From Bolinopsis microptera (Eukaryota; Ctenophora; Tentaculata; Lobata; Bolinopsidae), in NCBI RefSeq assembly GCF_026151205.1, contig NC_087083.1, positions 9,669,460 to 9,733,459 of the forward strand: a stretch of DNA of 64,000 bases, given 5' to 3'. Positions within the stretch are counted from its first letter, which is position 1. The number at the start of each line of letters is the position of its first letter. Position numbers and translations under genes: made by a program. Below the pieces are notes generated by a model that saw only the letters and a program-made list of their open reading frames with translations, had not been told where the DNA came from and made no database searches. This document shows positions 27,195 to 55,140 of this stretch, piece by piece.

Positions 27195-29576
27195 CACAAT
27201 GCTGGCAAGCATTACCGTCGCCCTTATATTCACAATACTATTTACCCCCTATACTATTATATCCCCTTTATTGTTTTCCAGGCATTAAGACTCATCGAAA
27301 GTAGTTCAGCAGGTATATTTAAGTTCAAAACATTCTAATTCAATGTTAAAGATGACAGGAATAAGAAATAGTTATATGGAGGTTTTTAAGAAATTTGCGC
27401 AAAATACGCGCCAGCATGTTATACGAAATTAGGTAAAAAACCCAAAATCGCCATATTCAGGTGCCTTAAAAACCGTGTTAAAATTGAGTTAGAGATCTGA
27501 AACTTTGCAGGGCGTCTAGACCTTGCCCAAATCGACTGTAAACAAAATTTCATGTTTCAGCAGTATCGGCAAGTGGGTTTTCTGGAACCCCTGTTTTACA
27601 ACAGATTGTCGTGAAGCATATATATCTATACTATAATTTAAACTTGACGAAATTTCCCCGGCAACGGGGACATAGAAGAAAAAACACCGAAAATCGACCT
27701 CAAAATGACCCTCTGGTGAAATCAAACCCAGCTCGCAAATGGAGTTGAAACCTCGCCATTTTTAGCAGGGTTGTAGAAAAAGGATAGGAATAGGCTATAG
27801 CATTCTTAGAATTTTGATTTAGGCTTTAGATTTTTTATAATTAACGTCGGAAGTGAGGTAAAATAACCGTTAGAATAATGTCGTTATTTTAGCAAAGGTT
27901 TACTGCGCTGTTGCGTAGCACGTGCGCGAGCAAGAACATCTTAACTACGCGCGTTGTTATGCTGTATGCTACGTCATAATTTCAAAACTAGCTCACATTT
28001 ACGCTCACGCTATGACTTATATTCATAACTTTGGTTGTGATTGGTATTTTTTGATGCGGTAAAAAGTATCGTTTTGGGAATCCGAATACTAACAACGCTG
28101 TCGCCATTGTTAGATAAATTCCATTATGTCTACAGTATAACAGAGCTATATGATGAAGAGAAATTAAAACATAACTGATTTTTAAAATTTCCTCGAACAA
28201 AGCTTTCGACTAGCGGGTTTCTAGTATAATATATATGATGTATAGACGCTTTGGCAGTCAATTGTAGCCTACATTTAAGTGTCCGTAGATCCAAAAGTAT
28301 AAACGATACAGTCATCTCAAACCACAGGTTTTAAAGATAACCGTTTAAACTTCAGTTTACATTCTATTGAAAAATAATTTAACGTCATCATCATCACTTG
28401 ATGACGTCATCAAATTAAGTGTTTTTAAAACTTGATTTTTGACAAAGTAAGAAATTTTCAAATCGATTTTACACCATTAAGGAGTAATTATATCCAAAAT
28501 CTGAGGACATTTTCACCTTAGATAATTGTTTAAGCATTCTGAAAATCTACCGGAAAAGTTTCTTACCTTGCTCCTTCATAAAAATATTTGCTATTGAAGT
28601 TAGTGCTTTTTTAAAGAATAATTTTATAAAAACACAAAAGTTGTGAATTAGTATTCTCTGGTGTTGGGCCATCCCTTGGGTTGTGGAGCTCAATTTTGCT
28701 TCTTAAAGGTGTAAATTGTGTTATAGGCTAGTTTTAAAGTTAAAAATCGAAAAGTTGCACACGTGGGGACACGCCCAAATTGATTTAAAATAGCTAAAAT
28801 CACTAAAAATTTTGATTTTCACGATTTTTATCAACTTTGGAGTCCCCTTGTGATCCAAGTTCTTTTTAAAATCTTCTGAAACTTTTCATGCTTATCAAAC
28901 TATATATTAAATACCACTATGCAAAAATTTACGGTGATTCAATATTGTATGCGCATGCAACGTCCGCTCAAAGATTGCACGTGCGAAAGGTGAGAATTTT
29001 GCTCATTCGTGATTTCGAATATATTCTGCTTTCCACGATATTTAAATGGCATTATATATGAATTTAATGCCAACTTGAATGAGTAAAAAGTGCCATATTC
29101 AGTCGGTTATCGACAGATATACCTACCTAAACACAAGGAAACGTTTTCAAAGGCAGAATTTCGAAATCGTTGAAATTACCTCCTTATTAATGAAGTTTCG
29201 ACTGTGTAAATTATCCTGACATTATAATCAAAAAGAGATGATATTTGACCAAAACCCATAATCATGGGTAGAGTGTACCGCTGCCAGTGTCTCTCTTTTC
29301 CAAACAAAAGGAAATGATATTAATTTGAGGAACCGTCCGCTAATGCAAATTGAAACCGAGAATGAAATCGGTCGCTCGCTTTTCCGATCCCATTTAATAA
29401 GCTTTATTACAATTCGTAAGCCGTGAATGAATGGGAAAAGCGAGCGACCGATTTCATTCTCGGTTTCAATTTGCATTAGCGGACGGTTCCTCAAATTAAT
29501 ATCATTTCCTTTTGTTTGGAAAAGAGAGACACTGGCAGCGGTACACTCTACCCATGATTATGGGTTTTGGTCAAAT
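27195..29576 (-). mobile_element. dispersed ~1.8 kb repeat, copy C (inverted)
   Basis: Full reverse-complement copy of the family at 2551-4333: right end at 27195 (AATGCTGGCAAGCATTACCG), body, and foldback arms at about 29249-29390 and 29430-29574. It is interrupted at about 27633-28225 by about 590 bp not present in copies A or B. It carries the same TGATGACGTCATCA palindrome near 28400. Small ORFs along it (27516-27725, 28130-28315, 29228-29494, 29427-29645) mirror ones in the other copies and reflect the repeat only. Confidence 0.85.
27633..28225. mobile_element. ~590-bp insertion inside copy C
   Basis: Copies A and B are continuous through the ACGACAATCTGT ... TATATA ... AGCGTCTA region. 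Copy C has extra sequence there, beginning near AATTTAAACTTGACGAAATT and ending near GACTAGCGGGTTTCTAG, between TATA-rich flanks. No ORF of note and no clear terminal repeats; exact ends are uncertain by about 10 bp because the target is a TA-rich microsatellite. Confidence 0.6.
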
Positions 29577-30502: not shown

Positions 30503-33500
30503 TTAATCTTCGTCAATTGCAATGGTCTTGATGATTCTGTTGCAGACCACGTAGGGATCCATGTTACTGGATGGACGACGATCCTGGGGATTTAATTATT
30601 TGATTAATTAATTAATTAATTATTTTTTATTAGATCAGGGAACCAAAGAACAGTGATAAAGAAAATGAAATGTTTCTACTGACCACAGTGAACCTGCACT
30701 AGATTATACAAATCAATATATTCTGTTTTTATAATACACAAACAGTTTCAACAAGGAAGTAGGATATATAGAAGTGAATGACAATATATAGCTCAGTTAT
30801 AACCGGATATCTGCAACGAAAGGGACCCCATTAGACGTCAGCCCAGTAAATGAACATAGCCTCCTTACCAGAAACAAAAGGAAATCGCGGCATGTACGGA
30901 ATCGCGATTTTTCCCATTATTTGCGACAAATTTTATGTATAGTTTAATCAGTAGTCAATGACTAGACAGGCCAAAATACTCGCGAAATCCTTTAAGATTT
31001 CCTTGTAGAGTGGCCTCAGTGGCTGCCCCACAAAGTACAAACAAACAAACAAACTTAAAAGTGAGAGACATACCTCAAGGTAACCGTAACCGTCCTTCTC
31101 AACAGATCTTGGGATCCTGATACTGGCTCCCCTGTGGGCTACACCGTAGCTGAACTCGTTAATACTGAAGAAATGTGTGTAAATGTAAGTGAAATATGTA
31201 AAATATGCAAAATATAAAAATTATGTGAATCATGGTGACAGAATCAGAATATTTGAGTTTGATAAGTCAAAAACGTCACCAAAATTAAAACAAATTATGT
31301 AAAAAGTATCACATAATATTATAACACTTAATTGTGCTCGATCCTTAATATTTGATAGCTTCCATGCTTTTTATTCAGCTATAAATCCCGTTTATAACAT
31401 CAGAAAATAAGCACGTTATTAATTATAATTAGCTAACTAATTGATAATAGTTAAACAACACGTGTATTTACGTCTTCAGTTTACAAATCAGTGAAACACA
31501 AACATACTATGCGGGAGACTACAGACCCCCTCAAAGTCCTTTTCAACGTTACTGCCAGGTTACATAGCACTCAATAAATGTATTTAATTGTAGTTGTGAA
31601 AATAGTTTTAATACCTTGCTGTTTCGTGAGCACCAGTCAGCCGTCTAGCGTTGTCCTTTCCTCCTGACGGATCATAAGCTTCAATATGCTCCTTATGTTT
31701 AGCCTCCATCTTCTCTATAGCTACCATGATGTGTTCCATTCCTCCTTCTTCTCGCATTGGTTTGGTGCTGAGACAAGAGATTTAACAGAATTGTAAACAA
31801 AATTAACAGAATTGTACAACATACAAAGGTTACTCTAATCTTCTAACTTTCTAATGACGAGAGAGCCCTCTCCAGTCCCCCCTTCAGTAGCATACGACTG
31901 AATTGTTGTATTACTTATACGAGTTCGTTAGTGTTCTCCTTGGTCATTTCATGTTCTCCTTGGTCATTTCATGTTTAATTCCTGTTTAGTTTAGTTTAAT
32001 TCCTATTTAATTCCTGTTTAATACGACTGCCGTACTTGTGTAACAGGCACATGAGTAGGTGATTATTTGATTGATTAATTAGTTTCAAAAAATTAACAGT
32101 CCCTACCTGACATTGGTATGGCAACCAGCGCCATTCCAATCTCCATCAATTGGCTTAGGATCTAAGCTGACACAAACATTAAACTCCTCTGCTACACGAT
32201 GAAGAATGTACCGTGATACCCAAAGGTGGTCACCCATGTCTACTCCAGAGCAGGGTCCCACTTGGTATTCCCACTGTGGTGGGAAGGTGTGTTAGAGTGG
32301 TGGGAAGGTGTGTTAGAGTGTTGGGAAGGTGTGTTAGAGTGTTGGGAAGGTGTGTTAGAGTGTTGGGAAGGTGTGTTAGAGTGGTGGGAAGGTGTGTTAG
32401 AGTGTTGGGAAGGTGTGTTAGAGTGTTGGGAAGGTGTGTTAGAGTGTTGGGAAGGTGTGTTAGAGTGTTGGGAAGGTGTGTTAGAGTGGTGGGAAGGTGT
32501 GTTAAAGTGTTGGGAAGGTGTGTTAGAGTGGTGGGAAGGTGTGTTAGAGTGGTGGGAAGGTGTGTTAGAGTGTTGGGAAGGTGTGTTAGAGTGGTGGGAA
32601 GGTGTGTTAGAGTGGTGGGAAGGTGTGTTAGAGTGTTGGGAAGGTGTGTTAGAGTGGTGGGAAGGTGTGTTAGAGTGGTGTGTTAGAGTGTTATGAGTGT
32701 TAGGATTTATTAGGATTTTTTAGATTCGATTTATAAAATATCTTCAGTTCCGAATTTTCAACGTTCATGTCTTTCAGAATAAATAATTTCGAAACGGCCG
32801 TGATGATTTACGAAAGTTTATGTACATACTTCAGTATTACATTTTTGATAATGACATTTATACTTTATAGTCAAAAAAGTATGGTGATGAAGATACCAAA
32901 TTTGGTAAGTTCCGAGTTTTAATTTTGAAAGTAGCTCTTAAAGTGGGCCCGTGAGTTACTTAGTGAGTTACTAAAGTTCTTATGTTATGACGTAGTGGTC
33001 ATGAATAAGCACGTGGTTAGACCACGTGGTTTTGATCAGGTGGTTTCGATCAGGTGGTTTTGATCAGGTGGTTTTGATCAGGTGGTTTTGATCAGGTGGT
33101 TTTGATCAGGTGGTTTTGATCAGGTGGTTTTGATCAGGTGGTTTTGATCAGGTGGTTTTGATCAGGTGGTTTTGACCAGGTGGTTTTGATCAGGTGGTTT
33201 TGATCAGGTGGTTTTGATCAGGTGGTTTTGATCACGTGGTTTTGATCACGTGGTTTTGATCAGGTGGTTTTGATCACGTGGTTATGATCACGTGGTTTTG
33301 ATCACGTGCTTTTGATCACGTGCTTTTGATCACGTGCTTTTGATCACGTGCTTTTGATCACGTGGTTTATATGAGTTGAACCTGAGAGGGCATAACTTCC
33401 GCATTGGAACCTCCGATCATGACACCAGCGTAGAGGCAAGCTCTGTAATGAGCCTCCACCACTTTCCTCCCCTTGATTCTGTCAGCTCCGATACCGCAAT

Positions 33501-34861
33501 AGTAAGGTCCCTGAGGGCCAGGGAACCCGTATCGGGGCCAGCAGTATACTTCTTTGTTGTGGGCGTCAAACAGGGTGTATTCCTGGAAAAAAACAGGTTG
33601 TACGTTTATCATAAACACTCGAAAAAGAAGTTCCAAGCATTGAATTGATTGAATATTGTGTCACATTTACTAAAGAAGAAGTTTAAAAACAAATCAGTTT
33701 CAAAAACTAGTTTTAAAATCATCAGCTGTCCAAACCTGCTCAATACCGAACCATGGTTCAAGCTCAGCAGCTTTCTCCATATTTTCAATACACTCGTGTC
33801 TTGGGTTAGTGGGATGAGGCTCATCATCAGGCCCGTAAGTTTCACATAAAACAAGGATGTTGTCTCCTCCTCGGAACGGATCTCTGGAGCAAGTAATAAT
33901 TCAACTTTTTAGATTGACTATTCACATGTTGATCTCTAGTAAAATAGTAAATTAGGTAATATTTGTCAAAACGAGAGGTATGGAATATAATTATATAAGC
34001 AAAATGAAATCCTTTGCAGGCTGAAAAGTATAAGCATTTTTTTACATTGGTGAGCAAAAATGTTTATTTCGTACTTGAAGATAAGGTAAAGTATAAGGTG
34101 TTTTTGTAGACGACAAGAAAAGTGGAAGTTAGATAGTTCTATTGAAATTTATACTTAACAAATAATTCGAAGTATAACATTCATCTTCAATAAAATCATA
34201 TTCTACTGACTTGAAGATAGCGACTGGTTTAAGGAGAACGTCACTGTTTTTACCAAGACTCTGGTTTGTACTACTACCGTCAAAGTTCCACCATGGCAGA
34301 TCATCGGGAGAATCTGGCACACTGTCCAGCGTCCTTGTCTTTCCTCTAATAGAGTAATCAAGATATGTCAAATACTGTGTGGACTAAACAAATTTTCCAA
34401 ATCTAAGCGATGCGATCAGCCTTAAAAATTATTTCAATAACTGTGATCAGCTTTTAAAATGAGTTCAATAACTGTGATCATCTTAAAAATTGGTTCAATA
34501 AAGCTGTGATCATCCTTAAAAATTGGTTCAATAAAGCTGTGATCATCCTTAAAAATTGGTTCAATAAAGCTGTGATCATCCTTAAAAATTGGTTCAATAA
34601 AGCTGTGATCATCCTTAAAAATTGGTTCAATAACTGTGATCATCCTTAAAAATTGGTTCAATAACTGTGATCATCCTTAAAAATTGGTTCAATAACTGTG
34701 ATCATCCTTAAAAATTGGTTCAATAACTGTTGCAGTTACCTCAAGTTTTCTCCGGAGCCGTCAACCCACATGTAGTAGGCTTGTATCTTATCTCCTTGAT
34801 CTAACTTCATAAAGGGGTTGGATCTCCCGTTTAATCCGTCCATGACAACTGCACCACTCAT
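30503..34861 (-). CDS. GLUL: glutamine synthetase, complete eight-exon gene (copy A)
   Basis: Eukaryotic type II glutamine synthetase (glutamate + NH3 + ATP to glutamine), normally a cytosolic decamer. Exons in transcript order: 34740-34861 (ATG 34859-34861), 34211-34345, 33736-33883, 33382-33582, 32107-32273, 31615-31767, 31074-31164 and 30503-30583 (TAA 30503-30505). All junctions are GT..AG with continuous phase; the product is 365 residues, usual for the family (about 370). Landmarks: [25 protein letters not shown] (DGSS signature), [49 protein letters not shown] (ATP/metal loop), [21 protein letters not shown] and [11 protein letters not shown]. Exon 4 has a weak donor (CAG|GTTCAA), whereas the duplicate in copy B has CAG|GTAAGA. 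Introns 1 and 4 hold minisatellites. Exons 5-8 exist only once in the window. Confidence 0.93.
32275..32695. repeat. 18-bp minisatellite at the GS exon 5 acceptor
   Basis: About 23 copies of GTGGGAAGGTGTGTTAGA (GTG/TTG variants). On the minus strand the array ends exactly at the splice acceptor of exon 5 (CTTCCCACCACAG before 32273), so the last unit supplies the pyrimidine tract. Because the unit is a multiple of three, long ORFs of a six-residue repeat appear on the plus strand; these are not genes. Confidence 0.95.
33010..33364. repeat. 14-bp minisatellite with CACGTG variants
   Basis: About 24 units of GGTTTTGATCAGGT-type sequence in intron 4 of glutamine synthetase, starting 18 bp beyond the exon 4 donor. 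In the half nearest exon 4 the unit has mutated from GATCAGGTG to GATCACGTG. This gives nine perfect CACGTG E-boxes at mostly 14-bp spacing (33233 to 33364). Two more CACGTG lie at 33010 and 33023. Confidence 0.93.
34411..34735. repeat. 31-33-bp minisatellite in GS intron 1
   Basis: About ten units of TGTGATCATCCTTAAAAATT plus GGTTCAATAA(AG)C, ending just before the exon 1 donor at 34739. The array fills most of intron 1 of copy A; copy B intron 1 (38346-38522) lacks it, so it expanded after the duplication. The 75-codon ORF here is a repeat artefact. Confidence 0.92.
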
Positions 34862-34892
34862 AGCTGTTCCTTTAATTACGGAGCTTTAAATT

Positions 34893-34980
34893 AATAGGAC
34901 GCGATGTAACAGAGTCGATATATTTTAATGTTGCCATGGGTTAGCAAGTCCTTATTCATTCAAGCCCGATATAGTTTGAC
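34893..34980 (+). repeat. dispersed short repeat (copy 3 of 3)
   Basis: Same family as 1177-1262: GCGATGTAACAGAGTCGATA followed by TATTTTAATGTTGCCATGGG. It lies about 35 bp upstream of the copy A glutamine synthetase start codon, so it falls within any copy A promoter. Confidence 0.7.
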
Positions 34981-35264
34981 TGCCCCTAAATATCTCATAG
35001 TAGAAAGTTTAGATAGGAAGAGTAATAGCAACTGAACTTTAAACGAGCGCACTTTGCGGCATGCTGGATATCTTGGACTTGGTGGTGCAGAACTGAATCG
35101 CAGATGTATGTTTTTAAATGGCAATAGTGACTCTACTGTATGAGAGTTGACATCTAAAAAAGAAAGGTGCTGATCTCTATAATTATATTAGTAACGCAAG
35201 CACATTATTTATTAATTGTAATGCAAAGTGTTCACAATGTAATCATTTGACGTTTTTGACTGAT

Positions 35265-35552
35265 ACGACGAGCGGTAATCAAAGCTCGCTCGAAACTCAA
35301 GCACAGTAAAATGTCCTAAATCTTTGCCTTCGAGTAGCTATGTTTTCTTTGAATGCTTGCCGGTTAACAAAATAATTGGTCAGCGAAGGGAACTTCGGTG
35401 AATGATATGACAAGCAATTATCCCTCCACTGACCAATTATTTTGTTAACCGGCAAGCATTCAAAGAAAACATTGCTACTTGTCACTTGAAGGCAAAGATT
35501 TAGGACATTTTAGTGTGCTTAAGTTTGGAGCGAGCTTTGATTACCGGACGCA
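35265..35552. mobile_element. foldback (MITE-like) element between the two GS gene parts
   Basis: Inverted arms of about 110 bp: 35270-35380 and 35435-35548. Outer ends CGGTAATCAAAGCTCGCTC and its complement, inner portion ACCAATTATTTTGTTAACCG. The loop of about 55 bp is unique. No coding content. No certain target duplication (flanks GACGAG and GACGCA are only partly alike). Confidence 0.75.
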
Positions 35553-37336
35553 CTAAATTACAACTCGCTAAGCACGTTGTTTGAAGACTCATCTAGTCAT
35601 CTACTCCGCACAGTGCTTGACATCAAGAATAAGAGATAGTGGAGAGTGTTATTTATCTAACATTCCAGATCACCGAGGTGGATGCTTGTGGTTTGTAAGC
35701 GGTTACATTAATTGTGGCTATGGGAAAAATAATTTATCGATTCGATTCGATAATGAGAACAGACGCAGTCAAGTTTAAGATATTTGAGAACTGAGGCGGA
35801 AAATATCTGCTTTTAAATAGCCGTAGTGGATACCACAGTAACGATAGAAAAGAATAGACTTCTTTTTCCAGAATTATCAAATAATTAAAATATTAAGTTA
35901 TTAAATGTGGAACATTCAGTTGTCTACGATTTTAACTATATCGGCTCTGGAGTCATGCATAAATTTATACAGGATAATACAATTACTTGCTGATCTGCAG
36001 CTCAATAACCAGTAGTTAAATAACTGCGGTTAATATATCTTATATAACGAATGACAGTAACAAGCAGATTTTACTCTGCTCAAGAGGAGAATTACCACGG
36101 GAGGAATCATGGTCTTCATATTTGTCCATGCTTGTTCTTAGGATTAAAAATTAACATTTGTTAATTTATGATGAAATCAGTGCTGAATATTTAAAAGGGC
36201 ATTTGATTGTTGACATAAATAATAAGCGGGTTGCAAATGCTTTGTGGCATTTTTTTCTTCATAAAAGGGACCGGTAGTTCGGGTCTGTACGAATTAACAG
36301 GACCAAAAAGAGGCTGGAAATGGTAATTTGAAACTTGAACGCGATTTTAATTTTTAAATACCTGCAATTATAGTACCTAAGAATATTAAACTGTTAAGAT
36401 ACAAAATATTCTTTATACCTAAAATAAGAGACCTATAAAGAAAGCAACAAAAAGTGGTAAAATCAAAGCTTATAAGCATTTCATCCAGGAACAATTTACC
36501 ATAAAACTCACCGGATTCTTCGAGGGAGTCCTCAAGTCAGACTAGATCGAATTTAAGAAGATCTAGAAGAATCATGGAAGTTCGAGAAGAATCCAGGAAC
36601 CGTTAGAATCTGCTAATGATATGACATATATTTGATCACAAGACCTTATATTAGCCATTATAGTTCGGCTGCATATTGTATATCGTGATTGCTTTTAAAA
36701 ACATCGGAGAAGCGTCTCGACGGAGCTCGCGATGGCCAACTCCAACAATTAATCAATTTGAGATTACTTAGAACCAGTGATGATTTCTCGGAAAATCATG
36801 AAATGAGTTGACAGACGATATCTGGCATGTACGTGTACGTGGTTAAACGAGAAGGTGTGTTTAAATGAGAAGGTGTGCTTATCATGTTGGTCAGCGAGCG
36901 TGGTTATTCGTGACCTTAAGTGGGTAAACTCAATGATCGGTGGTCAGTATCGTTGTATCATGATCAACGGTTTTTGTTGTGGATTGTTGGAAAGAACAAA
37001 ATTTATGCAGTGAACTTTTATGCATTATTGGAAAAATTACTCATTCTGAAAGACACATCTGGAATTGTAAAATTGGGAGACATTTAAATTTTCATTTCGC
37101 ATGACTGAATTTTCAATTTTTTCGTTGATAATTGTCCTTTGAAATTTAACCCAACACAATATAAGTGGTATTTAAAATTTAATATTTTCGGAACTGAAGA
37201 TATCTGTATGTTTATATCAATACACTGATTTAAATAGAGGTATTGTAAATGGTATAGAATTAACAAGATTACGTTTTCAATATAATTCATCATGGATTAT
37301 AAGCTGTAATCAAAATAAAATAAGAACGATTCTTAC
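35553..37336. other. gene-free stretch between GS copies
   Basis: Searched on the minus strand for equivalents of glutamine synthetase exons 5-8 ([25 protein letters not shown] motifs): none seen. Small frames at 35581-35778 and 37084-37293 have no recognised domain. Confidence 0.6.
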
Positions 37337-38641
37337 CTGAGAGGGCATAACTTCCGCATTGGAACCTCCAATCATGATACCAGCGTAGAGACAAGCTCTG
37401 TAATGAGCCTCCACCACTTTCCTCCCCTTGATTCTGTCAGCTCCGATACCGCAATAGTAAGGGCCTTGAGGGCCTGGGAACCCGTGACGTGGCCAGCAAT
37501 ATACTTCTTTGTTGTGAGAGTCAAACAGGGTGTATTCCTGAAGGAAGCGTGATGAGAGTGAGAGGATTATGATTTTAAATTTATGTAGAGACCGATTTAA
37601 AAATACATTTTGATAGATGAATATTGTATATTGATCATCGGTAAACGTACATAAGGCAAGAAATCAGACTTTTGGTAGTGCAAATTGCCCTGAACTCCTT
37701 AGGAAACGGATCAAGAGCAGTAAAATATCTTATCATAGCCCAACTGTTAGATGTTGGCAGAAATCATTGAATAATATACAAGGAAAATAGTTTTACTTTA
37801 GTAAGCAGAGGCTTGTGATTGTCATTACCTGTTCAATACCAAACCAAGGTTCAAGCTCTGCAGCCTTCTCCATATTTTCAATACACTCGTGTCGTGGGTT
37901 AGTCGGGTGAGGGGTCTCGTCGGGTCCGTATGTCTCACACATAACGATTATATTGTCACCTCCTCGGAACGGATCCCTGAGGCAAATATTAATTTACAAA
38001 TTAATAATGAATTAATTATTAATATATCTTATTTTCTGCTCCTTCATCTTTTCTGCTTCCCGTGTAGAAAAGTTTAAGTATAAGGTGTTTTTCTAGCCGA
38101 CAAGTGGAAGTTAGATAGTTCTATTGAAGTTTATACTTACTTAACTCCAAATAAATTATTGAAATTCAAAGTATAACATTCATCTTCGATAAGAATCATA
38201 ATCAACTGACTTGAAGATAGCGACTGGTTTAAGAAGAACGTCACTGTTTTCGCCAGTACTCTGTTTTGTACTACTACCGTCAAAGTTCCACCACGGTAGG
38301 TCATCAGGAGAGTCTGGGACACTGTCCAGCGTCCTTGTCTTTCCCCTGGTACAAGTGCATTAAGATTAAGTTATGTAAAATATAAACTATTTATCAGCCA
38401 TCAATTTGACAAATTAAAAACAATAGTTTTCAATTTAAAACAAAGTTACGATCGCTCAATGATTTGCCAAAATCTCCACCAAACAGGATCTCGTGTAAAC
38501 TCTAAGAGCTATTTTCGGTTACCTGACATTCTCTCCGGAGCCATCAACCCAGATGTAGTAAGCTTGTATCTTATCCCCCTGAGGAAGCTTCATGAAGGGG
38601 TTACTCCTTCCGTTTAGTCCGTCGGTGATTGTTGAAGTCAT
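37337..38641 (-). CDS. glutamine synthetase exons 1-4, tandem duplicate (copy B)
   Basis: Four exons homologous to exons 1-4 of copy A: 38523-38641 (ATG 38639-38641), 38211-38345, 37829-37976 and 37337-37537. All are open, with good GT..AG sites and the same phases. Landmarks: [63 protein letters not shown] and [10 protein letters not shown]. Exon 4 ends in phase 0 with a strong donor (CAG|GTAAGA), but no exon 5-8 follows before copy A begins at 34861. The halves could be spliced to exons 5-8 of copy A, skipping its exons 1-4, to give a second full enzyme, or this could be a partial duplicate with no product. Differences from copy A are few and mostly conservative (MSGAVV versus MTSTIT at the N-terminus, YGF versus HGF), suggesting selection or recent duplication. 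Confidence 0.85.
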
Positions 38642-42658: not shown

Positions 42659-42946
42659 TGGGATATGATTTTTTATCAACATATTATTTGATTGATTTTC
42701 ATTTACCAGGGACTAGGCTTGTGCGGTGTGGTTTCGACTACAATTTTACTGCGTTCTGGTTTCCCTTTGAAATTTACATACATCTGTCCTTTATAGGAAC
42801 CGACCGGAAATCCGGCTGAATCCGGTTCCGGCCGGATATCCGGCTTCAAAATCCGGTTCCGGTTCCGGCTCCGGCTGGAAAAAAAATTGCCGGATTTTTG
42901 CCGGATTTCAGTTTTTTTTACCGAAAAAAAAATCAAAAAAATATTT

Positions 42947-45240
42947 TCGGCTAATAATGAACAGGGTAGCCTGAATCGTGGAAAAAAGTGGTTTTCAGAA
43001 AAACTTTGAAAAATTTTCACTTAGAAGTTTTTCGGTCCGAGTCGTTCTCGAGACGTACCTCCTGTATCGAGAGCTCCCGCTTCCGAGCTCGTATTGCAAA
43101 GGGGAGGCCTGCCTTTCGAGATCACATTACCAGGGGAAACCTCGAGTCCAGAATTGTGTATCGAGGGGTAGGTGGGGACTTCGAAAAACCGAAAAAATAT
43201 TTTCGGCTAATAATGAACAGGGTAGCCTGAATCGTGGAAAAAAGTGGTTTTCAGAAAAACTTCGAAAAATTTTAATTTAAAAGTTTTCGGTCCGAGTCGT
43301 TCTCGAGACGTACCTCCTGTATCGAGAGCTCCCGCTTCCGAGCTCGTGTTGCAAAGGGGAGGCCTGCCTTCCAAGATCACATTACCGGGGGAAACCTCGA
43401 GTCCAGAATTGTGTATCGATGGGTAGGTGCGGACTTCGAAAAACCGAAAAAATATTTTCGGCTAATAATGAACAGGGTAGCCTGAATCGTGGAAAAAAGT
43501 GGTTTTCAGAAAAACTTTGAAAAATTTTCACTTAGAAGTTTTTCGGTCCGAGTCGTTCTCGAGACGTACCTCCTGTATCGAGAGCTCCCGCTTCCGAGCT
43601 CGTGTTGCAAAGGGGAGGCCTGCCTTCCAAGATCACATTACCGGGGGAAACCTCGAGTCCAGAATTGTGTATCGATGGGTAGGTGCGGACTTCGAAAAAC
43701 CGAAAAAATATTTTCGGCTAATAATGAACAGGGTAGCCTGAATCGTGGAAAAAAGTGGTTTTCAGAAAAACTTTGAAAAATTTTCACTTAGAAGTTTTTC
43801 GGTCCGAGTCGTTCTCGAGACGTACCTCCTGTATCGAGAGCTCCCGCTTCCGAGCTCGTGTTGCAAAGGGGAGGCCTGCCTTCCGTGATCACATTACCAG
43901 GGGAAACCTCGAGTCCAGAATTGTGTATCGAGGGGTAGGTGGGGACTTCAAAAAACCGAAAAAATATTTTCGGCTAATAATGAACAGGGTAGCCTGAATC
44001 GTGGAAAAAAGTGGTTTTCAGAAAAACTTCGAAAAATTTTAACTTAAAAGTTTTCGGTCCGAGTCGTTCTCGAGACGTACCTCCTGTATCGAGAGCTCCC
44101 GCTTCCGAGCTCGTGTTGCAAAGGGGAGGCCTCCCTTCCGAGATCGCATTACCGGGGGAAACCTTGAGTCCAGAATTGTGTATCGATGGGTAGGTGCGGA
44201 CTTCGAAAAACCGAAAAAATATTTTCGGCTAATAATGAACAGGGTAGCCTGAATCGTGGAAAAAAGTGGTTTTCAGAAAAACTTTGAAAAATTTTCACTT
44301 AGAAGTTTTTCGGTCCGAGTCGTTCTCGAGACGTACCTCCTGTATCGAGAGCTCCCGCTTCCGAGCTCGTATTGCAAAGGGGAGGCCTGCCTTTCGAGAT
44401 CACACTACCAGGGGAAACCTCGAGTCCAGAATTGTGCATCGAGGGGTAGGTGGGGACTTCGAAAAACCGAAAAAATATTTTCGGCTAATAATGAACAGGG
44501 TAGCCTGAATCGTGGAAAAAAGTGGTTTTCAAAAAAAATTTAACTTAAAAGTTTTCGGTCCGAGTCGTTCTCGAGACGTACCTCCTGTATCGAGAGCTCC
44601 CGCTTCCGAGCTCGTGTTGCAAAGGGGAGGCCTGCCTTCCGTGATCACATTACCAGGGGAAACCTCGAGTCCAGAATTGTGTATCGAGGGGTAGGTGGGG
44701 ATTTCAAAAAACCGAAAAAATATTTTCGGCTAATAATGAACAGGGTAGCCTGAATCGTGGAAAAAAGTGGTTTTCAGAAAAACTTTGAAAAATTTTCACT
44801 TAGAAGTTTTTCGGTCCGAGTCGTTCTCGAGACGTACCTCCTGTATCGAGAGCTCCCGCTTCCGAGCTCGTGTTGCAAAGGGGAGGCCTGCCTTCCGTGA
44901 TCACATTACCAGGGGAAACCTCGAGTCCAGAATTGTGTATCGAGGGGTAGGTGGGGACTTCAAAAAACCGAAAAAATATTTTCGGCTAATAATGAACAGG
45001 GTAGCCTGAATCGTGGAAAAAAGTGGTTTTCAGAAAAACTTCGAAAAATTTTAACTTAAAAGTTTTCGGTCCGAGTCGTTCTCGAGACGTACCTCCTGTA
45101 TCGAGAGCTCCCGCTTCCGAGCTCGTGTTGCAAAGGGGAGGCCTGCCTTCCGAGATCGCATTACCGGGGGAAACCTTGAGTCCAGAATACAGAATAGTGT
45201 ATCGAGGGGTAGGTGCGGACTTAGAAAAAACCGGAAAATA
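42947..45240 (+). repeat. ~255-bp tandem repeat array in hAT copy 1 (9 units)
   Basis: Units start near GAATCGTGGAAAAAAGTGG (about 42973, 43229, 43484, 43740, 43996, 44251, 44507, 44752 and 45008). Each contains CGAGAGCTCCCGCTTCCGAG, TTGCAAAGGGGAGGCCT and ATATTTTCGGCTAATAATG. The seventh unit is about 10 bp shorter. The left TIR-proximal sequence already contains the ATATTTTCGGCTAATAATG block, so the array grew out of the subterminal region. The many small ORFs are artefacts of the repeat. Confidence 0.95.
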
Positions 45241-45708
45241 TTTTGGGCCACCTCCCTGGGCTAGCCCCCGGCTATAATCGCAAAATTGGCAGTATTTAAT
45301 CTTCTGATTATGAAATACGAAATATGAAGGTCACGTGTTCAGGGTCTGGGTAGCTACTTAATTAGCTCATTACTGCAATCATGTGACTCAGCTCTAGACG
45401 CCAGACGGTGATTAGTACTGTACTAGACAGTGCCTGCTTACGAACAACCCTATTAAGCAACTTTGGTTGTAAGTCACGTGACCCAATGATACTCAGACTT
45501 GCATGAAAAAAGGGAATTCGCACAAACGCGCTCAATCAGGGGTCTGGCAGCATATGCCAATTAGATATCATTTCTGATTATTACTCGTCTAGTGTCGTGA
45601 CTCGTGTCTACTCGTGTTACATTGTGTCTGCTACGTACTGCTTGTTTAAGCAATGTCTAATAGTAGATAGGAAGATTTGTAAAAAAACTATATCTGTTCG
45701 GACGTTGA

Positions 45709-47363: not shown

Positions 47364-48649
47364 AACTTGCCATCCTGAGTCTGTTAAGATTAATACAGTG
47401 AAGAACCTATATAGCGAGGCTTGCCGTATCTCATCTGGTCCAGCGGAAAAGGAGCACTCTCTCAGACTCCTTGATGATCTATTACAGAAAAACGGTTACC
47501 AGAACCCAAGACGTTATTGTAACAGTAGTAATTCTAACAGGCGTCAGAGTGTTGAGGATGATTCCAGGACAGTTCTTAATTTAGATTTCATTTCGGACAG
47601 TACTAGCAATAAGATTAGAAATTATGTAAAGCAGAACAATTTACCTATTAAAGTAAACTTTAAACCTACTTCGAAATTGAGAAATATTTTATGTAGTAAC
47701 AGACCGTATGATAAACGTGTGTGCAGTATTAATTCATGTAAAATTTGTCCTTTGATAGTTTGTAATAAAAATTGTGAAGTGAAGAATGTTGTATATAAGA
47801 TTAAGTGTAAATTATGTGACCAGCTGTACGTTGGAGAAACCAGTAAGAAAGTACATGCTCGTGTAGGAGAACACTTACGTTACGCTACCTACCCTGCTAC
47901 CCCTTCTAATGTTAGTCAAGCTTTTGCCATACATTATTCGAGCTGTCATGAGGGGTTAAATCCCAGTTTAGAAGTAGATATTTTAAGAATTGAACCCAAT
48001 ACTGTCAGAAGAAAGATTTTTGAAGCGATGTTCATTATTAATCTGAACCCTACAATTAACAAGAGAGAAGAACTGGATACTATTAAACGTTTTATCATAG
48101 CTAGTACTGAAGAATTTTAGATATTTTAGTTTCATTCCCTTTTTATTGCATACAGTTTAAGTTTTCTAGCAGTAGTAAGTTTTAATGTTTTTTCACATCT
48201 CGCTCACAATCAGTAACCACTCACTATATTTTCACTCACATTGTGTATACACCATCTCACATGTATTGTATCTTTTACCTTATCATCTGTTATCACTTAC
48301 ATCTTAAATCATCTGTTATCACTGTACATGTCATTCCATCACACGATCACAATCACGTACTTGCTGTTTAGTGGATGTTTTAAGTTTATTGAATAGCAGA
48401 TCGAGTAGTGTTGTATATAATATATAGATTTTGATTCTAATTTTAGTCGAGTATTTGAACAATTTGTTGTCGTTTAGCCATTTTTGATTAATAAATTTTA
48501 TGAGACAGTTTTCTCACATATTTACCAATTTTGTCAGCATGAATAAGAAGTTGTTACTTTGAAACGTCGTTTATCCTAACAGTGCAATATCATTTGTCGC
48601 AAATCAGAATAATCAGAAATTATTTGGAAAAACCCAAAAACTGTCTATA
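47364..48649 (+). mobile_element. Penelope-like element 3' part, plus-strand partner
   Basis: Plus-strand partner of the inverted pair: end of the RT thumb, linker, GIY-YIG domain, and the same 3' non-coding region as 46449-46973 reversed, ending at CTGTCTATAG (about 48649). Inverted, partially deleted neighbours are a known habit of Penelope elements. The unit ends about 95 bp beyond the stop codon of the UNC-93-like gene. Confidence 0.85.
47371..48120 (+). pseudogene. Penelope-like thumb, linker and GIY-YIG endonuclease
   Basis: The frame is open from HPESVKINTVKNLYSEACRI, the conserved thumb segment of Penelope reverse transcriptases, through KEHSLRLLDDLLQKNGY. A linker with paired cysteines follows (CSINSCKICPLIVCNKNCE), then the GIY-YIG nuclease (VVYKIKCKLCDQLYVGETS, R in KVHARVGEHLR, and a distal helix with IFEAMFIINLNP) to the TAG at 48118-48120. 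The reverse transcriptase palm is missing, so the copy is dead, although the nuclease itself is undamaged. It is distinct from the RT at 40198-41664, whose thumb ends without this linker. Confidence 0.88.
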
Positions 48650-50089
48650 GTTTTAATACACATAAATCATATCTATCATATCACGGAAACATTAACAACG
48701 GTTCTATAATAGCTGCTCTTCCCTCTATTCTCACTCTCTAATTCTCATTCCCTAACGTACTGTTTGAGTCCAACAGCGAGGGAAAGACAATAAGCTACCA
48801 CCGTCACCATGGTGATGTAACAGTAAGAGTGCATATCAGATAGAGTAGGAGAAAACATACCAAGTCCATACATCAAGTGATACACAAGGGTATTAATGGA
48901 GTACCCGAAAGAAGTCTTCTTGTCCTATTGCTGTGTCATAGATCACGCTGAACATTGAATCTCCCAATCCGATAAGAGCTGAGATGACCATCAAATGAAC
49001 AATTCCTCCTTTGATAAAGGTCTCAGCCGCTCCAATTTCTAGGATCTGGGAGAAAGCTTCTTTGGGGAATATCAAGATGGAGAGTATCATGGCCACCAGG
49101 ATAAGTGAACCAGAGAGAACAATACAACCGGTAGGGGTTATCCATCTGGAAATTATGTTGGAAGTTGCACTTCCGACAAGATTGGATCCGCCAATCACTA
49201 CTGTTGTAGGCGGAATCAGCTTCCGTTGATTGGATATTGAAGCTATTACTGTGGGAAACATCTTGTAAAAGTAGGCACAGATAAATCCAGAGTATATCAA
49301 GGGAACAAAATGTAGCCAAAAAACAGGGCGCCTTGCCATCATCTTGAACCATACAATAAAGTCACTAAATGAATTGTTTAGCTCACCCCCATCCATTCTT
49401 TCCTTTTTGTCGCCATCTTCTTTTGGCATATCAACGATATCATCCCCTACACTACTTTCATCTACTTTCATAACAGAATCATCCTCCCCATTATTTTCAT
49501 CAATTTTCACATAATTCACGTCTGCAGTAGTTTTGTGAGAATCCCTACCTTTAATCTCGGATATTCCAAACCCAGCCAGAAGACTAGCAAGGACAGTGAC
49601 ACCAGCACAGAGAGCATAGACTATCTGTCTGTTAGTGGTAGATATTGAAGTCACTTCAACAAAGTAGAAATAGTTAACTAGTCCTCCTGCCACCATACCC
49701 GCGTGTGCAGTGGTCCAGAGATAGCCCATATTCCGTTGAGATTTACCCACCTCGGAATTATCCATCACAATCATAGGAGCGAAGATCCAGCCCGCACCTC
49801 TCCCAATTCCACTGAGGAACTCTCCAGCGTAGATAACATACTGGTTTGTAATCCAAATCATAGGCCAGTACGAACCAGTTGTCAGTACTATTGAGAGGCC
49901 TGCTGTTAGCCGGAGTCCGAGACGATTATACAGAAACTGAAATACCAGAGCAGTAACCATGGAGCCTATATTCTGAATTATAGCGGAGTAGTAGCCTACA
50001 GTGAGGGGGATGTCGCTACTTTCTTCCAGTGTAGGAACCGACCGGATTGGGGTTTTGGCTGCCGGACCGGATTCAGCCGGATTTGGATC

Positions 50090-50332: not shown

Positions 50333-50804
50333 TCAACGTCCGAACAGATATAGTTTTTTTACAAATCTTCCTATCTACTACTAGACATTGCTTAAACAAG
50401 CAGTACGTAGCAGACACAATGTAACACGAGTAGACACGAGTCACGACACTAGACGAGTAATAATCAGAAATGATATCTAATTGGCATATGCTGCCAGACC
50501 CCTGATTGAGCGCGTTTGTGCGAATTCCCTTTTTTCATGCAAGTCTGAGTATCATTGGGTCACGTGACTTACAACCAAAGGTGCTTAATAGGTTGTTCGT
50601 AAGCAGGCACTGTCTAGTACAGTACTAATCACCGTCTGGCGTCTAGAGCTGAGTCACATGATTGCAGTAATGAGCTAATTAAGTAGCTACCCAGACCCTG
50701 AACACGTGACCTTCATATTTCGTATTTCATAATCAGAAGATTAAATACTGCCAATTTTGCGATTATAGCCGGGGGCTAGCCCAGGGAGGTGGCCCAAAAT
50801 ATTT

Positions 50805-53800
50805 TCCGGTTTTTTCTAAGTCCGCACCTACCCCTCGATACACTATTCTGTATTCTGGACTCAAGGTTTCCCCCGGTAATGCGATCTCGGAAGGCAGGCC
50901 TCCCCTTTGCAACACGAGCTCGGAAGCGGGAGCTCTCGATACAGGAGGTACGTCTCGAGAACGACTCGGACCGAAAACTTTTAAGTTAAAATTTTTCGAA
51001 GTTTTTCTGAAAACCACTTTTTTCCACGATTCAGGCTACCCTGTTCATTATTAGCCGAAAATATTTTTTCGGTTTTTCGAAGTCCCCACCTACCCCTCGA
51101 TACACAATTCTGGACTCGAGGTTTCCCCTGGTAATGTGATCACGGAAGGCAGGCCTCCCCTTTGCAACACGAGCTCGGAAGCGGGAGCTCTCGATACAGG
51201 AGGTACGTCTCGAGAACGACTCGGACCGAAAACTTCTAAGTGAAAATTTTTCAAAGTTTTTCTGAAAACCACTTTTTTCCACGATTCAGGCTACCCTGTT
51301 CATTATTAGCCGAAAATATTTTTTCGGTTTTTTGAAGTCCCCACCTACCCCTCGATACACAATTCTGGACTCGAGGTTTCCCCTGGTAATGTGATCACGG
51401 AAGGCAGGCCTCCCCTTTGCAACACGAGCTCGGAAGCGGGAGCTCTCGATACAGGAGGTACGTCTCGAGAACGACTCGGACCGAAAACTTTTAAGTTAAA
51501 TTTTTTTTGAAAACCACTTTTTTCCACGATTCAGGCTACCCTGTTCATTATTAGCCGAAAATATTTTTTCGGTTTTTCGAAGTCCCCACCTACCCCTCGA
51601 TGCACAATTCTGGACTCGAGGTTTCCCCTGGTAGTGTGATCTCGAAAGGCAGGCCTCCCCTTTGCAATACGAGCTCGGAAGCGGGAGCTCTCGATACAGG
51701 AGGTACGTCTCGAGAACGACTCGGACCGAAAAACTTCTAAGTGAAAATTTTTCAAAGTTTTTCTGAAAACCACTTTTTTCCACGATTCAGGCTACCCTGT
51801 TCATTATTAGCCGAAAATATTTTTTCGGTTTTTCGAAGTCCGCACCTACCCATCGATACACAATTCTGGACTCGAGGTTTCCCCCGGTAATGCGATCTCG
51901 GAAGGCAGGCCTCCCCTTTGCAACACGAGCTCGGAAGCGGGAGCTCTCGATACAGGAGGTACGTCTCGAGAACGACTCGGACCGAAAACTTTTAAGTTAA
52001 AATTTTTCGAAGTTTTTCTGAAAACCACTTTTTTCCACGATTCAGGCTACCCTGTTCATTATTAGCCGAAAATATTTTTTCGGTTTTTTCGAAGTCCCCA
52101 CCTACCCCTCGATACACAATTCTGGACTCGAGGTTTCCCCTGGTAATGTGATCACGGAAGGCAGGCCTCCCCTTTGCAACACGAGCTCGGAAGCGGGAGC
52201 TCTCGATACAGGAGGTACGTCTCGAGAACGACTCGGACCGAAAACTTCTAAGTGAAAATTTTTCAAAGTTTTTCTGAAAACCACTTTTTTCCACGATTCA
52301 GGCTACCCTGTTCATTATTAGCCGAAAATATTTTTTCGGTTTTTTGAAATCCCCACCTACCCCTCGATACACAATTCTGGACTCGAGGTTTCCCCTGGTA
52401 ATGTGATCACGGAAGGCAGGCCTCCCCTTTGCAACACGAGCTCGGAAGCGGGAGCTCTCGATACAGGAGGTACGTCTCGAGAACGACTCGGACCGAAAAC
52501 TTTTAAGTTAAATTTTTTTTGAAAACCACTTTTTTCCACGATTCAGGCTACCCTGTTCATTATTAGCCGAAAATATTTTTTCGGTTTTTCGAAGTCCCCA
52601 CCTACCCCTCGATGCACAATTCTGGACTCGAGGTTTCCCCTGGTAGTGTGATCTCGAAAGGCAGGCCTCCCCTTTGCAATACGAGCTCGGAAGCGGGAGC
52701 TCTCGATACAGGAGGTACGTCTCGAGAACGACTCGGACCGAAAAACTTCTAAGTGAAAATTTTTCAAAGTTTTTCTGAAAACCACTTTTTTCCACGATTC
52801 AGGCTACCCTGTTCATTATTAGCCGAAAATATTTTTTCGGTTTTTCGAAGTCCGCACCTACCCCTCGATACACAATTCTGGACTCGAGGTTTCCCCCGGT
52901 AATGCGATCTCGGAAGGGAGGCCTCCCCTTTGCAACACGAGCTCGGAAGCGGGAGCTCTCGATACAGGAGGTACGTCTCGAGAACGACTCGGACCGAAAA
53001 CTTTTAAGTTAAAATTTTTCGAAGTTTTTCTGAAAACCACTTTTTTCCACGATTCAGGCTACCCTGTTCATTATTAGCCGAAAATATTTTTTCGGTTTTT
53101 TCGAAGTCCCCACCTACCCCTCGATACACAATTCTGGACTCGAGGTTTCCCCTGGTAATGTGATCACGGAAGGCAGGCCTCCCCTTTGCAACACGAGCTC
53201 GGAAGCGGGAGCTCTCGATACAGGAGGTACGTCTCGAGAACGACTCGGACCGAAAACTTTTAAGTTAAATTTTTTTTGAAAACCACTTTTTTCCACGATT
53301 CAGGCTACCCTGTTCATTATTAGCCGAAAATATTTTTTCGGTTTTTCGAAGTCCCCACCTACCCCTCGATGCACAATTCTGGACTCGAGGTTTCCCCTGG
53401 TAGTGTGATCTCGAAAGGCAGGCCTCCCCTTTGCAATACGAGCTCGGAAGCGGGAGCTCTCGATACAGGAGGTACGTCTCGAGAACGACTCGGACCGAAA
53501 AACTTCTAAGTGAAAATTTTTCAAAGTTTTTCTGAAAACCACTTTTTTCCACGATTCAGGCTACCCTGTTCATTATTAGCCGAAAATATTTTTTCGGTTT
53601 TTCGAAGTCCGCACCTACCCATCGATACACAATTCTGGACTCAAGGTTTCCCCCGGTAATGCGATCTCGGAAGGGAGGCCTCCCCTTTGCAACACGAGCT
53701 CGGAAGCGGGAGCTCTCGATACAGGAGGTACGTCTCGAGAACGACTCGGACCGAAAACTTTTAAGTTAAAATTTTTCGAAGTTTTTCTGAAAACCACTTT

Positions 53801-54870
53801 TTTCCACGATTCAGGCTACCCTGTTCATTATTAGCCGAAAATATTTTTTCGGTTTTTTGAAGTCCCCACCTACCCCTCGATACACAATTCTGGACTCGAG
53901 GTTTCCCCTGGTAATGTGATCACGGAAGGCAGGCCTCCCCTTTGCAACACGAGCTCGGAAGCGGGAGCTCTCGATACAGGAGGTACGTCTCGAGAACGAC
54001 TCGGACCGAAAAACTTCTAAGTGAAAATTTTTCAAAGTTTTTCTGAAAACCACTTTTTTCCACGATTCAGGCTACCCTGTTCATTATTAGCCGAAAATAT
54101 TTTTTCGGTTTTTCGAAGTCCGCACCTACCCATCGATACACAATTCTGGACTCGAGGTTTCCCCCGGTAATGTGATCTTGGAAGGCAGGCCTCCCCTTTG
54201 CAACACGAGCTCGGAAGCGGGAGCTCTCGATACAGGAGGTACGTCTCGAGAACGACTCGGACCGAAAAACTTCTAAGTGAAAATTTTTCAAAGTTTTTCT
54301 GAAAACCACTTTTTTCCACGATTCAGGCTACCCTGTTCATTATTAGCCGAAAATATTTTTTCGGTTTTTCGAAGTCCGCACCTACCCATCGATACACAAT
54401 TCTGGACTCGAGGTTTCCCCCGGTAATGTGATCTTGGAAGGCAGGCCTCCCCTTTGCAACACGAGCTCGGAAGCGGGAGCTCTCGATACAGGAGGTACGT
54501 CTCGAGAACGACTCGGACCGAAAACTTTTAAATTAAAATTTTTCGAAGTTTTTCTGAAAACCACTTTTTTCCACGATTCAGGCTACCCTGTTCATTATTA
54601 GCCGAAAATATTTTTTCGGTTTTTCGAAGTCCCCACCTACCCCTCGATACACAATTCTGGACTCGAGGTTTCCCCTGGTAATGTGATCTCGAAAGGCAGG
54701 CCTCCCCTTTGCAATACGAGCTCGGAAGCGGGAGCTCTCGATACAGGAGGTACGTCTCGAGAACGACTCGGACCGAAAAACTTCTAAGTGAAAATTTTTC
54801 AAAGTTTTTCTGAAAACCACTTTTTTCCACGATTCAGGCTACCCTGTTCATTATTAGCCGAAAATATTTT
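50805..54870 (-). repeat. ~255-bp tandem array in hAT copy 2 (16 units, higher-order)
   Basis: Sixteen units of the copy 1 repeat. Read from the 55014 end, units 1-7 carry the same diagnostic variants in the same order as units 1-7 of copy 1, and the last two match its last two. Between them a four-type block (a unit with GCGATCTCGGAAGG, one with GTAGTGTGATCTCG, the short unit, one with GTGATCACGGAAGG) is repeated, giving three blocks against one in copy 1. Short units lie at about 53265-53296, 52508-52539 and 51496-51527. Confidence 0.92.
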
Positions 54871-55140
54871 TTTGATTTTTTTTTCGGTAAAAAAAACTGA
54901 AATCCGGCAAAAATCCGGCAATTTTTTTTCCAGCCGGAGCCGGAACCGGAACCGGATTTTGAAGCCGGATATCCGGCCGGAACCGGATTCAGCCGGATTT
55001 CCGGTCGGTTCCTATTCCAGTGCTATATTCTGAACTGCCCCTGCTGGAAATACTGCAGAGAATGAGATACCCATAGCAATGCCGGTTATTAAAACGTTCT
55101 TGAGCTTCTCGTTGCAGCAGCATCCCAGGACTGTCATGAT

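Follow-up and report, generated by a model that had tools for sequence, protein, structure and literature searches.

Genes in which tandem 5′ cassettes are joined to one common 3′ part are known mainly from cell-recognition proteins. The chelicerate sDscam-beta genes are described as having tandem cassettes, generally of four 5′ exons and each with its own promoter, that are spliced to shared 3′ exons, and an origin of the cassettes by segmental duplication of exons 1–4 together with the promoter has been proposed (PMC4835542). The same account describes the vertebrate clustered protocadherins as joining alternative first exons to common 3′ exons, with a promoter for each first exon (PMC4835542). 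Here we describe a glutamine synthetase locus with a similar layout in a 64,000-nucleotide (nt) stretch of the genome of the ctenophore Bolinopsis microptera (NC_087083.1, positions 9,669,460 to 9,733,459; this whole stretch is referred to as the window, and positions are those within it). The first four exons of the gene are present twice and the last four once, and from the sequence we put at roughly 58% the probability that the locus encodes two glutamine synthetases through alternative 5′ cassettes spliced to common exons 5–8.

Two sets of exons 1–4 and one set of exons 5–8

The complete gene, designated A, lies on the minus strand (34861–30503) and consists of eight coding exons totaling 1098 nt, which are intact and encode 365 amino acids plus the stop codon. 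Exon 1 (34740..34861, 122 nt) starts with ATG and is followed by exon 2 (34211..34345, 135 nt), exon 3 (33736..33883, 148 nt), exon 4 (33382..33582, 201 nt), exon 5 (32107..32273, 167 nt), exon 6 (31615..31767, 153 nt), exon 7 (31074..31164, 91 nt), and exon 8 (30503..30583, 81 nt including the stop). The encoded protein matches PF00120 (55.9 bits) and PF03951 (35.2 bits), both above the Pfam cut-offs, and aligns over almost its full length with enzymes of known structure (PDB 7u5n, E = 6.4e-155, residues 12–364; also PDB 2ojw); it has both the beta-grasp and the catalytic domain of a full-length GSII enzyme. About 2.5 kb upstream, exons 1–4 are repeated on the same strand (set B, 38641–37337), with exon 1 (38523..38641, 119 nt) again starting with ATG, and exons 2 (38211..38345, 135 nt), 3 (37829..37976, 148 nt), and 4 (37337..37537, 201 nt) corresponding in length to those of A. 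The order is thus two homologous four-exon 5′ sets, in the same orientation, upstream of a single 3′ set.

There are several points of correspondence between the two sets. Set B is free of stops over its 603 nt (201 codons), the exons start in phases 0, 2, 2, and 0 in both A and B, and all internal introns are of the GT..AG type; A exon 1 is longer than B exon 1 by one codon. The proteins encoded by exons 1–4 are 91.0% identical, with 78 differences in 603 aligned nt, and the match of A to B exon 4 by tblastn in the window (E = 3.5e-41) reflects homology rather than chance. Exon 4 of both sets ends in phase 0, the phase in which exon 5 starts, so that either set is phase-compatible with the first shared exon. 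A preliminary description of the locus had reported the doubling of exons 1–4 beside single exons 5–8, with open frames, equal phases, and splice sites, and exon mapping and searches confirm all of this. The window has a GC content of 38.2% and contains no Ns, and an Rfam scan of it at gathering scores gave no match.

The first 201 residues comprise the beta-grasp domain (29–102, by Pfam) and the first part of the catalytic domain. The product of B exons 1–4 alone matches only PF03951 (41 bits), has no complete catalytic domain, and stops short of the tryptophan-glutamate pair that opens exon 5. In GSII enzymes the remaining metal, glutamate, and nucleotide ligands are located in the portion that exons 5–8 encode, and the B product is no synthetase on its own, about half of the active site being absent from it.

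A second set of exons 5–8 was not found in the window by tblastn with A exons 5–8, nor in the 2475-nt spacer that separates B exon 4 from A exon 1 (34862..37336, minus strand) by word-7 blastn (best E 0.82). The spacer sequence following B exon 4 has no convincing homology to A intron 4, to exons 5–8, or to the 3′ flank of A (best 31 nt at 81%, E 0.004), and it has no genome matches besides an inverted repeat and a dispersed repeat among the matches listed. The preliminary description had proposed looking for B exons 5–8 elsewhere in the genome; a protein search of the whole assembly (264,652,675 bases in 232 contigs, all 47 candidates scored, 50 matches at E ≤ 0.001) was negative, as the cassette reading expects, and the matches outside this locus were all to exons of seven paralogs that are more distant. 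The paralogs are at most 82% identical to exon 5 of gene A, the nearest being C8a (82%); they are C8a and C8b (both on C8 and with introns), one each on C10, C5, and C12 (C12b), and two intronless genes on C11. Each has its own exons 1–4, and none can be the lost half of B; no second exon 1–4 set is present at any of the seven among the matches listed. C8b was considered as a control truncated copy and was dropped, since its exons 7 and 8 lie about 6.4 kb downstream of exon 6.

Constraint on the upstream exons

Pairwise codon likelihood for A and B gives a synonymous divergence (dS) of 0.52 and a ratio of nonsynonymous to synonymous change (dN/dS) of 0.109 (confidence interval 0.063–0.176), and a ratio of 1 is rejected with twice the log-likelihood difference (2ΔlnL) at 70.6. 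The values are dS 1.13 and dN/dS 0.082 (2ΔlnL 50.9) for exons 1 and 3, and dS 0.25 and dN/dS 0.117 for exons 2 and 4. The proteins differ at 19 columns (18 substitutions and one gap), and by majority rule among five paralogs six residues are derived on B and eight substitutions fall on A, with four left open; the gap column, polarized to A by the script, was set aside as most paralog models do not reach it. The paralog alignments exclude C10, which equals C12b over 334 modeled residues, and C11b, which has the same protein as C11a. Tip lengths in the codon tree are 0.26 for A and 0.20 for B (189 gap-free columns), and B shows no relaxation relative to A. Branch models with paralog outgroups give a dN/dS of 0.073 for B against a background of 0.079, and 0.229 for A against 0.069 (2ΔlnL 3.6), a hint that A rather than B is the faster branch. 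In these models, however, the outgroups are saturated, the synonymous changes cannot be divided between A and B, and the separate fit of exons 2 and 4 ran to its bound, and we therefore rely on the pairwise estimate and on the polarity of the amino acid changes. By both measures protein-level constraint is seen for both cassettes over their whole divergence, with similar amino acid change on each side, and on the evidence of its codons set B has been under constraint for nearly all of its separate history.

Neutral decay was simulated from the A sequence with 400 runs per setting. At 0.05 substitutions per site none of the 400 simulations kept to 10 or fewer amino acid changes, and neutral drift of B to this extent or beyond is excluded; at 0.02 substitutions per site 65% did so and 59% were free of stops. 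The duller alternative in the preliminary description, a partial-duplication pseudogene, fails in its simple, long-dead form given the dN/dS of 0.11, the relative rates (six derived residues on B to eight on A), the simulations, and the lack of any stop or broken splice site. In our judgement A and B are not alleles or haplotigs either, as their dS is far too large.

The divergence is unevenly distributed. Codons that specify the same residue in A and B differ in 13 of 32, 9 of 42, 16 of 45, and 8 of 64 cases in exons 1, 2, 3, and 4, respectively (chi-square p 0.006), and the longest run of A/B identity was reached in 728 of 20000 shuffles. Intron 2 aligns at 77% over its first 135 nt, and no convincing alignment was obtained for introns 1 and 3 or for the 5′ flanks. 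We read this pattern as an old duplication probably patched by gene conversion. The constraint on exons 1 and 3 matters most, because conversion hardly explains it.

Proposed splicing of set B to the shared exons

We propose that either B exons 1–4 or A exons 1–4, each with a 5′ end of its own, would be spliced onto the sole exons 5–8. Set B would be transcribed and its exon 4 donor (37337) joined to the exon 5 acceptor (32273), so that a 5063-nt intron with A exons 1–4 in their entirety would be removed; an intron of this size is not unusual in the family, as about 6.4 kb separate exons 6 and 7 of C8b. The B exon 4 donor (CAG|GTAAGA, score 12.74) is the best of the 11 donors of the locus, that of A exon 4 (CAG|GTTCAA) scores 8.08, and the exon 5 acceptor (11.89) ranks second among 218 scored AGs in the interval from B exon 4 to exon 5. 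When B exon 4 is joined in turn to A exons 2 through 8, only exon 5 gives an enzyme of normal length (364 amino acids), with the frame open through the native stop. B exons 1–4 are without the ligands of exons 5–8 and yet catalytic exon 4 is conserved, which suggests translation of B jointly with exons 5–8. These could be those of A, reached by splicing, or B's own until very recently, or B's own and outside the assembly, and constraint does not separate the three. Sharing is favored because no remnant of exons 5–8 was found in the spacer, the B exon 4 donor is the best of the locus, and only the junction with exon 5 gives a normal protein. The shared 3′ half put forward in the preliminary description is partly supported, by the phases, the constraint, and the negative search for B exons 5–8, while the B4–A5 splice itself is something we infer; its further suggestion that the cassettes are mutually exclusive is not established, as the phases would permit in-frame hybrids at every matched boundary (B1–A2, B2–A3, B3–A4, and B4–A5).

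The exon 5 acceptor has an unusual context. A intron 4 closes with 400 nt made up of 19 copies of the 21-nt unit CTAACACACCTTCCCAACACT (array at 32276..32677, minus strand) that reach the acceptor, and the consensus unit combines CTAAC with a pyrimidine run and is free of AG. The sequence CTAAC is similar to the animal branch site, and it occurs 19 times in 417 nt compared to 14 times in the remaining 11281 nt that were examined. Exon 5 is preceded by 466 nt free of AG; the corresponding stretches measure 19–160 nt at the remaining nine internal acceptors in A and B and 9–148 nt at 28 paralog acceptors. An exact 31-nt pattern from the array has nine matches in the genome, all of them inside it. 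The array could strengthen the shared acceptor, and in the proposed mechanism it would aid the use of exon 5. The array may instead be accidental: C8a carries a similar one without any choice of cassettes, and A has two more arrays just after donors, one of a 31-nt unit in intron 1 (34414..34730, minus strand, beginning 9 nt past the exon end) and one of a 14-nt unit in intron 4 (33026..33368, minus strand, beginning 13 nt past the exon end). The C8a array (C8:6392915-6394068) lies before exon 8 of a nine-exon model and has 82 copies of a 14-nt unit, and the last 1200 nt of that intron contain 79 CTAAC sequences.

CTAAC-bearing minisatellites therefore adjoin 3′ splice sites in two glutamine synthetase introns (A intron 4 and C8a). 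Across the genome the pattern CTAAC-N9-CTAAC-N9-CTAAC has 893 matches, compared with 167 for a reversed control, although these are clustered in arrays and are not independent. Six array flanks were inspected, picked from the first places listed rather than at random. One (L062) adjoins an exon coding for a low-density lipoprotein (LDL)-receptor class B repeat (Pfam, 2.3e-09), another (L060) a plausible exon without a Pfam match, and in a third (L063) the exon, judged by reading, appears to be on the opposite strand; three (L058, L059, and L061) gave no clear exon call. A literature search on branch-point minisatellites returned nothing relevant by title.

The 5′ ends of the two sets also differ. 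In B an acceptor-like AG (score 9.2) lies 13 nt upstream of the ATG, and the best such site within 300 nt of the A start scores 5.37 and is 231 nt away. In the ctenophore Hormiphora a spliced leader is reported on at least 56% of Iso-Seq reads (PMC8527503), and the position of the B site would suit leader trans-splicing. Upstream of A, a dispersed repeat of about 142 nt (34866–35007, minus strand) has a sharp start at ATATT and stops 4 nt short of the ATG; it is present at at least 39 other places in the genome, 78–89% alike in the copies listed (40 of 493 candidates scored). With the acceptor-like site on one side and the repeat abutting the A start codon on the other, it is B that has the more conventional-looking 5′ end.

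A number of observations weigh against the shared use of exons 5–8. Training of the splice-site scores used just four paralog models, with 29 donors and 28 acceptors in all (C8b only to exon 6, and C10 left out). The A exon 4 acceptor (12.58) scores above that of exon 5, and B exon 4 must skip the acceptors of A exons 2, 3, and 4; a junction with A exon 4 is in frame, but doubles exon 4. The acceptor of B exon 2 scores 2.41, the lowest internal one of A and B (training mean 9.7, standard deviation 3.1), with A exon 3 close to it at 2.70. The branch models do not date the constraint, as fixing dN/dS at 1 on B costs a 2ΔlnL of 5.4 over all codons and only 1.2 over exons 2 and 4, and the same constraint would be expected had B been a complete gene until very recently. 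Finally, the ratio of divergence in exons 5–8 to that in exons 1–4 is 0.65–0.99 in four comparisons with A and 0.73–0.98 in six among other paralogs (B and C8b being left out here as well), and slower evolution of the shared exons than in paralogs is not clearly seen in these ten comparisons.

The same observations bear on the other explanations. B may have been a complete tandem duplicate until very recently, its exons 5–8 then having been deleted, perhaps only in the sequenced haplotype, to leave a set that is now dead or dying; we regard this as a real though clearly lesser possibility. Constraint over the whole divergence says little about its last few percent, as the outcome at 0.02 substitutions per site illustrates (59% stop-free, 65% with at most 10 changes), and tandem copies with patches resembling gene conversion (chi-square p 0.006, above) recombine easily. 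Against this, no remnant of exons 5–8 or of A intron 4 was found in the 2475-nt spacer, though a clean deletion would leave none, and the B exon 4 donor is not only intact but outscores every other donor of the locus. The timing must be very recent. Somewhat less probable again is that B exons 5–8 are present in the animal and were dropped from the assembly. Gap closing and haplotig purging can lose tandem sequence. Both are described for the Bolinopsis microptera assembly, which was made with wtdbg from PacBio reads (PMC10232365). A repeat collapse, however, should join homologous sequence, and no convincing homology is seen in the spacer after B exon 4 (best E 0.004); no stray set of B exons 5–8 was found in the 232 contigs, and there is no N in the window.

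Two further possibilities concern the B transcript itself. That it yields a truncated protein (201 residues followed by VRIVLILF from the intron), or a product with another 3′ exon in the spacer, acting as an enzyme regulator, appears quite unlikely. The read-through frame does close after eight codons, and the spacer has one AATAAA (35213) and four ATTAAA, but in our judgement a few such hexamers are unsurprising in 2475 AT-rich nt, and neither a conserved catalytic exon 4 nor a strong donor is needed for a truncated protein. We consider it very improbable that B transcripts are mostly other hybrids such as B3–A4 or B1–A2. All four matched boundaries are phase-compatible and A exon 4 has the top acceptor between B exon 4 and exon 5, but B exon 4 (exons 2–4 for B1–A2) would be left functionless, and yet it differs from A exon 4 by three amino acids in 67 codons, a likeness to which gene conversion from A could contribute.

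If exons 5–8 are shared by alternative cassettes, the two enzymes may differ in use. The active site of animal glutamine synthetase is bounded by two neighboring subunits, one contributing its N-terminal domain and the other its catalytic domain, and mixed decamers would thus share one catalytic half and differ in the loop supplied by the neighbor. A bolder version, in which two interchangeable, promoter-selected N-terminal cassettes are captured by a hub acceptor with some 19 amplified branch sites and tune mixed decamers combinatorially, is offered as speculation and is probably wrong in at least some of its parts.

Surrounding sequences and comparison with known systems

Two inverted repeats flank gene A, one in the spacer (35273–35546) with nested arm pairs of 63 nt and 59 nt, and one downstream (29243–29576) with 146-nt arms that are 99% complementary; both are perhaps remnants of mobile elements. 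Farther away are two large arrays of a 256-nt unit (42928–45248 and 50792–54880), in opposite orientation by their unit sequences, and between them a GIY-YIG-like open frame (47398–48120) and an MFS-like one (48893–49960), both named by reading their translations. Among the paralogs, the two intronless genes (C11:20.61 Mb and C11:19.69 Mb) are 926 kb apart and have an identical 358-residue modeled protein, with 14 of 1074 coding bases different and the surrounding DNA 87–98% alike in aligned pieces; they are perhaps a retrocopy that was duplicated later. The genes at C10:9.88 Mb and C12:10.51 Mb have an identical modeled protein through exon 7 (334 residues) and DNA about 94–98% alike in the main aligned pieces, although they are on different chromosomes.

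A literature search for glutamine synthetase in ctenophores, or with alternative first exons or partial duplication, which covered few subscription papers and was judged mostly by titles and the openings of abstracts, gave nothing relevant (PMC11193209 included) and no account of a glutamine synthetase of this kind. The A protein aligns with the animal decameric GSII enzymes (7u5n and 2ojw) over nearly its whole length; what sets the locus apart is that it has two sets of exons 1–4. If both are used as proposed, two enzymes would have to evolve with one half in common, which would make a natural experiment on the separate divergence of active-site halves, and the locus would show how selection can keep a truncated tandem duplicate rather than letting it decay.

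Of the systems found, sDscam-beta is the closest in architecture, with multi-exon 5′ cassettes upstream of common 3′ exons. It has many cassettes, encodes a cell-surface Ig protein, and, in the account consulted, has had its promoters and splicing tested; the glutamine synthetase locus has two cassettes, encodes a metabolic enzyme cut inside its catalytic domain, and is known here from sequence alone. The clustered protocadherins, as described there, differ in having single-exon variable regions with no internal acceptors to be skipped, in contrast to the passage of B exon 4 past the acceptors of A exons 2–4. The locus nonetheless has the anatomical features of a tandem 5′ cassette gene and, by analogy, probably works like one. 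If so, this design would reach a housekeeping enzyme in a ctenophore, with its swap point inside the catalytic domain.

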